Origin: Chitinophaga pinensis | GTDB lineage: Bacteria; Bacteroidota; Bacteroidia; Chitinophagales; CAMDFR01 | Assembly (NCBI GenBank): GCA_945860705.1 | Contig: CAMART010000021.1 | Location: 1-50,919 of the forward strand | DNA length: 50,919 bases | Direction: 5' to 3' | In this document: positions 19,849 to 20,829 of the stretch, in pieces | How positions within the stretch are numbered: position 1 is the stretch's first letter | Layout of the letters: every line of letters starts with the position of its first letter | The notes under the pieces: generated by a model | Databases searched by the model: none | What the model saw: only the letters and a program-made list of their open reading frames with translations | What the model was told of the DNA's origin: nothing | Program-made: the position numbers and the translations under genes

Positions 19849-20030
19849 TTGTATTATCAAACATATAATATCAATTTGACATTAGAAATGTTTTTTTCTA
19901 GTCTATTACCTGCCCTTAGGAACATTTTGAAGAATAGGTAATCTGAATTTTTGTAATACCATAATACATTCCGTAAAACACTGAGAGATAAATTTAAATA
20001 AAACCACTAAATGGCTTTATTATTTATTAC

Positions 20031-20072
20031 ACCAACTATAGCCCAAGGTTTAAACCTTGGGCTATAGTTGGT
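20031..20072. repeat. Perfect 42-bp palindrome (REP-like, left of RAYT)
   Basis: Positions 20031-20051 are the exact reverse complement of 20052-20072, with TTTAAA at the centre and no loop. The arm outward from the centre reads AAACCTTGGGCTATAGTTGG. The tail TATTCGATT follows directly at 20072-20080. The same core occurs in the copies near 20242, 20752 and 20796. Confidence 0.9.
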
Positions 20073-20133
20073 ATTCGATTTGTGACAAATGTTTTAATCA
20101 TGGTCAATATTACGAATTCGATGATACATTTAT

Positions 20134-20176
20134 TGTTTAAACCTTACTCTAAGTATGGTATTCGATTAATCATAAA
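20134..20176 (+). repeat. Degenerate REP-like half-copy
   Basis: GTTTAAACCTT at 20135-20145 followed, after a diverged stretch, by ATGGTATTCGATTAATCAT. The tail matches the tail of the palindrome copies at 20072 and 20778, but the GGGCTAT part is lost. A further weak copy (GGCTTAAACC) ends at 20220. Confidence 0.55.
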
Positions 20177-20241
20177 ATGATTTGAATCATTTTCATAATC
20201 TAAAACCAATGGCTTAAACCAATTCGTAATCAATAGCAATA

Positions 20242-20260
20242 GGTTTAAACCGTGGGCTAT
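20242..20260 (+). repeat. REP-like half-copy overlapping the RAYT stop codon
   Basis: GGTTTAAACCGTGGGCTAT, matching the palindrome core with two differences or fewer. The CTA at 20257-20259 is the reverse complement of the transposase TAG stop, so the repeat forms the 3' boundary of the coding sequence. Confidence 0.8.
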
Positions 20261-20688
20261 GATTGTATCGCATTTAATTTTAAAAAGGCATCATGCTCCT
20301 GCTGAAAAGTTTTTTTCTGATGATGTTGCTTTTGGTTTTTTATGTATTGAAAAACATTTTCAACTACCGATTCAGAAACAGAATATGATGCATAACCTGT
20401 TTGCCATGAAAATTTTTCTGTTGTCAAATTATTTTGATTGATAAAATACGAACTACTTCCTTTGATCTGCTTGATAACTTCTGCTATGGATTTTTCTCTA
20501 CTTAGTAAAAATAAACAATGAATATGATCAGGCATTCCATTCACAATTCTTACAGGACAGCCTTGTTCTCTCAATTGCTCCAAAATATATTGATATATTT
20601 TAGATTCAATATCGCTATGAATAAAAGGCGCTCTTTCTTTAGTCGCCCAAATAGCGTGTATCCAAATTTTTGTATATGAATGTGGCAT
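20257..20688 (-). CDS. REP-associated tyrosine transposase (Y1_Tnp / RAYT)
   Basis: A 143-residue single-strand DNA transposase of the Y1 (IS200/IS605 TnpA-like) superfamily. The HUH motif is MPDHIHCLF with His55 and His57. The likely catalytic Tyr is Tyr115 in VFQYIKNQKQHH. WIHAIWATKERAPFI at the start is typical of the family. The gene has an ATG start and looks intact. It is flanked by long palindromes of one sequence family (20031-20072, 20735-20778) and by half-copies, and no IS200/IS605 ends, TnpB or target duplications are evident. That context points to a RAYT acting on REP-like repeats rather than a self-mobile IS200. The stop codon lies inside a repeat copy. Confidence 0.88.
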   Translation of the reverse strand: MPHSYTKIWIHAIWATKERAPFIHSDIESKIYQYILEQLREQGCPVRIVNGMPDHIHCLFLLSREKSIAEVIKQIKGSSSYFINQNNLTTEKFSWQTGYASYSVSESVVENVFQYIKNQKQHHQKKTFQQEHDAFLKLNAIQS

Positions 20689-20734
20689 AGTGTTTTTATT
20701 TTATGTAAACCATACAAATGATTTATTGTATTTT

Positions 20735-20778
20735 TTTCGTTTATAGCCCACGGTTTAAACCGCGGGCTATAAACGAAA
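20735..20778. repeat. 44-bp near-perfect palindrome (REP-like, upstream of RAYT)
   Basis: Two 22-nt arms (20735-20756 and 20757-20778) that are reverse complements apart from one position, with TTTAAA at the centre. The inner core GGTTTAAACCGCGGGCTAT is shared with the other copies, while the outer arm (AAACGAAA) differs from the left palindrome (AGTTGGT). It starts 47 bp upstream of the RAYT start codon and may overlap its promoter. Confidence 0.9.
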
Positions 20779-20795
20779 TTCGATTAATCATTAAT

Positions 20796-20814
20796 GATTT
20801 AAACCATGGGCTAT
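20796..20814 (+). repeat. REP-like half-copy between RAYT and hmgA
   Basis: GATTTAAACCATGGGCTAT, one half-unit in the same orientation as the copies at 20242 and 20752. It is preceded by ATTCGATTAATCATTAATG, the tail sequence also seen at 20159, and ends 15 bp before the hmgA stop codon. Confidence 0.8.
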
Positions 20815-20829
20815 AAATGGTATGAGCTC

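Follow-up and report, generated by a model that had tools for sequence, protein, structure and literature searches.

A small transposase gene framed by long palindromes raises the question of what kind of system, if any, the gene and its repeats form together. The gene (tnpA) lies in a stretch of 50,919 nucleotides from Chitinophaga pinensis (the window, in its full length), where the initial annotation had read the locus as a RAYT transposase accompanied by a lineage-specific, REP-like repeat family. The features of the locus are as follows:

20257..20688, minus strand: tnpA, encoding a 143-aa Y1/HUH transposase of the TnpA_Y1 subclass 1.2 type
20796..20820, minus strand: half-copy lying upstream of the 20735..20778 palindrome, 45 bp from its centre, from repeat and pairing searches
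20735..20778, minus strand: long loopless palindrome of the upstream unit (44 bp; 22-nt arms, 95% complementary, one mismatch)
20706..20725, minus strand: degenerate 3′ short palindrome of the upstream unit (7/9 pairs; ~41 bp from the long palindrome's centre)
20233..20260, minus strand: incomplete copy that overlaps the end of tnpA and keeps one arm intact
20174..20193, minus strand: perfect 5′ short palindrome, AAAATGATT-TG-AATCATTTT, of the degenerate third unit (9/9 pairs)
20135..20176, minus strand: degenerate third unit, first described as a half-copy, with a GTTTAAACC core and one arm decayed
20031..20072, minus strand: long loopless palindrome of the downstream unit (42 bp; two 21-nt arms, 100% complementary)
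19998..20022, minus strand: weak hairpin in the 3′ short position of the downstream unit, from folding; AATAAAGCCA pairs with TGGTTTTATT, with one G-T pair

The open reading frame is intact, and a motif reading of its translation located the HUH motif at D54-H55-I-H57, a WQ pair at W95-Q96, and Tyr115 within YIKNQKQHH, bearing out the earlier assignment of 20257-20688 to the Y1 transposases. A profile search matched TnpA to Pfam Y1_Tnp (8.9e-27); among the NCBIfam models, it passed the cut-off for IS200 (NF033573; 66 bits, cut-off 55) and failed that for REP_Tyr_transpos (36 bits, cut-off 80), and all 18 aligned relatives matched both models with a lower best E-value for IS200. Using an AlphaFold2 model of TnpA (pLDDT 87), Foldseek returned the TnpA of ISDra2 and IS608 as the top PDB folds, with the REP-bound RAYT structure ranking 30th; the NCBIfam score and the Foldseek result together give the TnpA_IS200 protein with a HUH-Y1 fold expected of the IS200/IS605 family. 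TnpA also carries the full subclass 1.2 motif set (DH[IV]H, WQ, Y---Q--HH), in which Y115, Q119, H122, and H123 are invariant across 18 aligned members. Judged by its motifs and profile scores, TnpA is an IS200/IS605-scoring protein with the Y---Q--HH signature of TnpA_Y1 subclass 1.2, and the name RAYT had to be dropped, as the NCBIfam scores and the presence of YIKNQ instead of the RAYT-type Y-x-x-NP motif rule out that identity.

Subclass 1.2 has been described as low copy, found mostly in Cyanobacteria and Bacteroidetes, and generally without IS200 terminal structures, with no REPs listed (Quentin et al. 2018; PMC6006769). TnpA and its relatives fit this description in their motifs (DH[IV]H, WQ, YIKNQ-x-x-HH), length (~148 aa), low copy number, and Bacteroidota hosts, but the one subclade treated here has conserved three-hairpin units at its flanks, in contrast to the ends 'generally without' IS200-type structures in that description (PMC6006769).

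At the locus itself, both long palindromes and their flanking half-copies proved to be as first described. Folding the two palindrome regions as single-stranded DNA gave structures 7.3 and 8.6 SD more stable than those of dinucleotide-shuffled sequences. The copies at 20135, 20243, and 20797 are direct repeats with 64–74% identity over 42 nt, some of them with a TATTCGATT/AATTCGATT tail, and the half-copy at 20796..20820 begins ~10 bp past the stop codon of a neighbouring dioxygenase gene. The short palindrome at 20174..20193 is centred 44 bp from the centre of the 20135 copy, the position predicted by the full unit described below, and its 9/9 pairing was reached by 6 of 5000 random window positions; the 3′ short palindrome at 20706..20725 likewise sits where the triad of other genomes predicts. 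The window's triad is otherwise degenerate, its remaining short palindromes standing at background, and the 19998..20022 hairpin was not above background by pairing count.

The 19-nt core, allowing ≤2 mismatches, has no occurrence outside this locus in the 2.94-Mb genome, and a 251-base DNA query returned no credible match elsewhere in it. Given that the core is confined to this locus, there is no REP-like dispersed family in the window's genome; the check proposed for REP-like dispersal, a count of the core, thus went against it. The locus resembles RAYT/TnpA_REP genes with their REPs or REPINs in that palindromes flank the transposase gene and solo copies occur in some genomes, but it differs in the failed model cut-off, the lack of a GTAG foot, the lack of dispersal in this genome, and units that are direct rather than paired in inverted orientation. 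Decay of the short hairpins and of several units, together with the lack of dispersed copies, makes the window's copy look old.

Two further Y1 genes of the same genome were noted. One (G000:C18:38681-39347; L013, L228, L229) has a YIHNNP motif and is flanked by inverted copies of GTCGGGTGTGCCACCCGCC, of which three more exact copies lie on contigs C1 and C19; by its motif and repeats, it looks like a true RAYT-REP pair. The other (G000:C2:159296-159562; L011) has a YIHLNP motif and repeated CGGCTAGAAACTTTGACTTAGTT-like stretches on both sides. The TIRYT genes of TIRtrons were also considered, being Y1 genes flanked by non-REP repeats, some of them self-complementary; their repeats are inverted, many with GGGGWSAS, and most of their proteins belong to subclass 2.1 (Di Nocera et al. 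2013; PMC3733652), unlike the direct repeats and subclass 1.2 protein seen here, which rules out a TIRYT identity.

Close homologues of TnpA (~48–78% identity) occur in Flavobacteriales, Bacteroidales, Sphingobacteriales, Cytophagales, and Chitinophagaceae, and within the window's own genus only 36–38% identical homologues of another subgroup were found. Units homologous to those of the window, matching the upstream palindrome at 20735..20778, were found beside other tnpA genes, and the palindrome recurs next to close homologues across many families of Bacteroidota. The gene is indeed bracketed by one non-GTAG repeat family, but this family is not lineage-specific. A complete unit spans ~105–110 bp and comprises three hairpins on the coding strand, namely a short palindrome (AATGGTT-NN-AACCATT), a long loopless palindrome (consensus CATAGCCCACGGTTTAAACCGTGGGCTATG, arms of 12–31 bp, the outer arms variable between units), and a second short palindrome (AACCGTT-NN-AACGGTT), with centres ~43 bp apart. 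Read in the orientation of the gene, many units have the 5′ short palindrome centred 42–46 bp before the long one and the 3′ short palindrome 41–47 bp after it; around 71 long palindromes, perfect stems of at least 6 bp numbered 24 at offsets −47 to −40 and 25 at +40 to +47, against 0.15 per offset elsewhere. The units on both sides of tnpA share one orientation, i.e., they are direct repeats, which places same-strand hairpins at the left and right ends as in IS200/IS605 elements. The upstream unit often lies −65 to −100 bp from the tnpA start codon, and many loci have a single detectable unit only. Long palindromes that are perfect although their outer arms differ between units may owe this to selection or to hairpin-templated correction in the course of replication.

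Two side observations concern the variation of these units. At L105, L113, L085, and L191, left palindrome halves (CATAGCCCACGGTTTAAAC) stand in tandem beside the full palindrome, resembling the half-copies of the window. L084 and L093 are 91% identical over 3.4 kb, with a 62-bp palindrome upstream of tnpA in L093 that is absent from L084; the difference amounts to ~89 bp and could be an assembly effect.

The units are strongly associated with the gene. Within 500 bp of close tnpA genes, we counted 46 palindromes in 77 kb (0.595 per kb), compared to seven in 275 kb (0.026 per kb; several of the same family) in DNA more than 1 kb away at the same loci, a 23-fold difference. A palindrome was present at 34 of 80 loci, comprising 34/56 outside a Flavobacterium clade and 0/24 inside it (the remaining 22/56 passed no strict palindrome test), counts to be read with the phylogenetic non-independence of the 80 loci and the possible loss of long palindromes from metagenome assemblies in mind. 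Parsing of ~17 loci from the more distant subclass 1.2 group yielded no triad-type units, the one palindrome there (L198) being weak; the units are thus restricted to one subclade of the transposase. Among 395 genomes of the class, a 24-nt pattern (≤3 mismatches) occurred in 43, with a palindrome in 22 of 37 genomes with a close gene versus 21 of 358 without (Fisher 6e-15, an exact value that is not reliable given that the 37 were set by a 48% identity line drawn post hoc). Those 21 comprise 16/153 genomes with the distant group only and 5/205 with no homologue, and complete solo triads were found in genomes without the close gene at L070 and L075. Copy number, which had been proposed as a check, thus follows the transposase only loosely, a few genomes without the close gene holding solo units. 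One genome, G277, has 25 palindrome copies, some in tandem at 126–131 bp and partly as mosaics with a second repeat, CAGGCTAATTGGCCTGCGCCGGGGCGCGTTAAGCTCCGTG (L177-L194).

These counts bear on the possibility that the palindromes are bidirectional terminators or insulators against read-through with no role in DNA processing. The palindrome at 20031-20072 does pass a loose terminator scan, and some pattern matches without the gene, such as the G171 loci with their A/T-rich flanks, look like ordinary terminators. A terminator, however, needs neither a fixed core, nor two extra palindromes at 43 bp, nor restriction to one transposase subclade, and the T-runs after the hairpins are inconsistent; we consider this account improbable.

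The gene is usually present once per genome, and homologues (E ≤ 1e-15) were detected in 113 of 197 sampled genera. No close relative was found in phage, plasmid, and viral collections, and in a literature search, which did not extend to ISfinder, no paper describing these repeats was found. Where measurable, dN/dS is ~0.05–0.28, low both with and without palindromes, which points to purifying selection on tnpA. In the Flavobacterium clade (24 rows), which has an SH-aLRT of 95 in a tree from a short search over few columns, the gene is retained with its synteny conserved and with no detectable palindromes (0/24). A domesticated, non-moving transposase, its palindromes acting as operators or mRNA hairpins in self-control or in some action on the chromosome, would fit the single gene per genome, the strong selection, the vertical retention in Flavobacterium, and the frequent position of the upstream unit close before the start codon. 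Yet the absence of palindromes from all 24 Flavobacterium loci means that control there cannot need them, and units also lie downstream of the gene and alone elsewhere. Distribution in Algoriphagus weighs against it as well: a DNA similarity search with the L088 locus matched 7 of 72 genomes, six within the tnpA element and one (G461) in flanking genes only, and this patchy presence, together with ~75% identity across orders, suggests transfer. Domestication of this kind therefore appears unlikely to us as a general account.

Alleles bearing on movement were found in Algoriphagus, where two genomes with flanks 91–92% identical differ at the site. G442 has one module, a short palindrome plus CCCCGGGTTAAAATCCGGGGCTA (one palindrome mismatch), and no tnpA; G130 carries two modules of this kind as direct repeats, one on either side of tnpA. 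This was the only clean solo-module pair found, and the alleles may reflect either insertion beside a resident unit or recombinational loss; a third genome (G441), from which the unit is missing, does not help to choose between the two. Empty sites were sought at three further places: in the window's genus, gene order around the neighbouring dioxygenase is not shared; in the case of the Algoriphagus formosus copy, the G461 flanks are rearranged; and in genus g22, the element is absent from G188, G127, G094, and G158, but these relatives do not share the DNA that adjoins it downstream.

A second kind of trace is the duplication of host sequence. At L018, L025, L026, and L085, a second copy of the upstream host gene's 3′ tail lies downstream of tnpA, and the same holds over 205 bp at L019 (identical to L086), compared to none of 63 control segments with a comparable duplication. 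In L025 and L026, both of g22, the duplicated stretch is the last 78–99 bp of the upstream gene, of which element-free relatives have one copy, and in L025, the host gene now terminates on the TAA of the palindrome core. We also noted that tnpA adjoins a tail encoding QIDQLVYQLYELTEEEIKIIE at L018, L019/L086, L082, L085, and L091, in some cases duplicated on both sides; this tail resembles the C-terminal end of type IIG restriction-modification enzymes from Bacteroidota.

Homologous recombination between the flanking direct repeats, by which the gene would enter and leave as a circle with TnpA incidental, predicts alleles such as those of G130 and G442, and the host-gene tails duplicated at five loci speak for it too. 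Such recombination would nonetheless leave unexplained why the three-palindrome unit is conserved and confined to one subclade and why solo units occur at unrelated sites, and we give it little credence.

On balance, we favour as reasonably probable that the locus represents a small IS200-like element, or what remains of one, and that the units are tnpA's own cis-acting sites, belonging to a low-copy, horizontally moving element or to a domesticated derivative of one. If it acts like the transposases of IS608 and ISDra2, TnpA would bind one or more of the unit hairpins in single-stranded DNA and, through Tyr115, would nick and rejoin nearby DNA; in this way units, and occasionally the whole gene, may be relocated, for the most part at low copy and from one species to another. 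The HUH-Y1 fold, the NCBIfam score, and the same-strand hairpins at both ends are shared with IS200/IS605 elements (IS608, ISDra2, and tnpA-only IS200), which differ from the present units in that the latter have three hairpins per end, long loopless arms, and usually one copy per genome. Known TnpA proteins bind hairpins of 20–25 nt, a size that the unit's 12–31 bp arms exceed. Counting against an IS200-like element with its own cis sites are these longer arms, the many loci with a single unit, the single gene per genome, unlike active insertion sequences, and the one solo-module pair, which could record recombinational loss instead of insertion.

A more far-reaching proposal, which we put forward tentatively and hold to be doubtful as a whole, is that the three-hairpin units are a new single-stranded DNA recognition site of subclass 1.2, and that solo units are both non-autonomous mobile elements and landing sites for the tnpA element, which would sometimes carry and duplicate the 3′ tail of the adjoining host gene.

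The three-hairpin unit is a real feature and a candidate cis site for subclass 1.2 transposases. Given that this subclass is common in Bacteroidota and that its substrate was previously unknown, a clade-restricted unit of this kind provides a concrete candidate substrate. The palindrome-bearing, patchily distributed copies and the palindrome-free, vertically kept genes of the Flavobacterium clade further constitute a natural experiment on transposase domestication.
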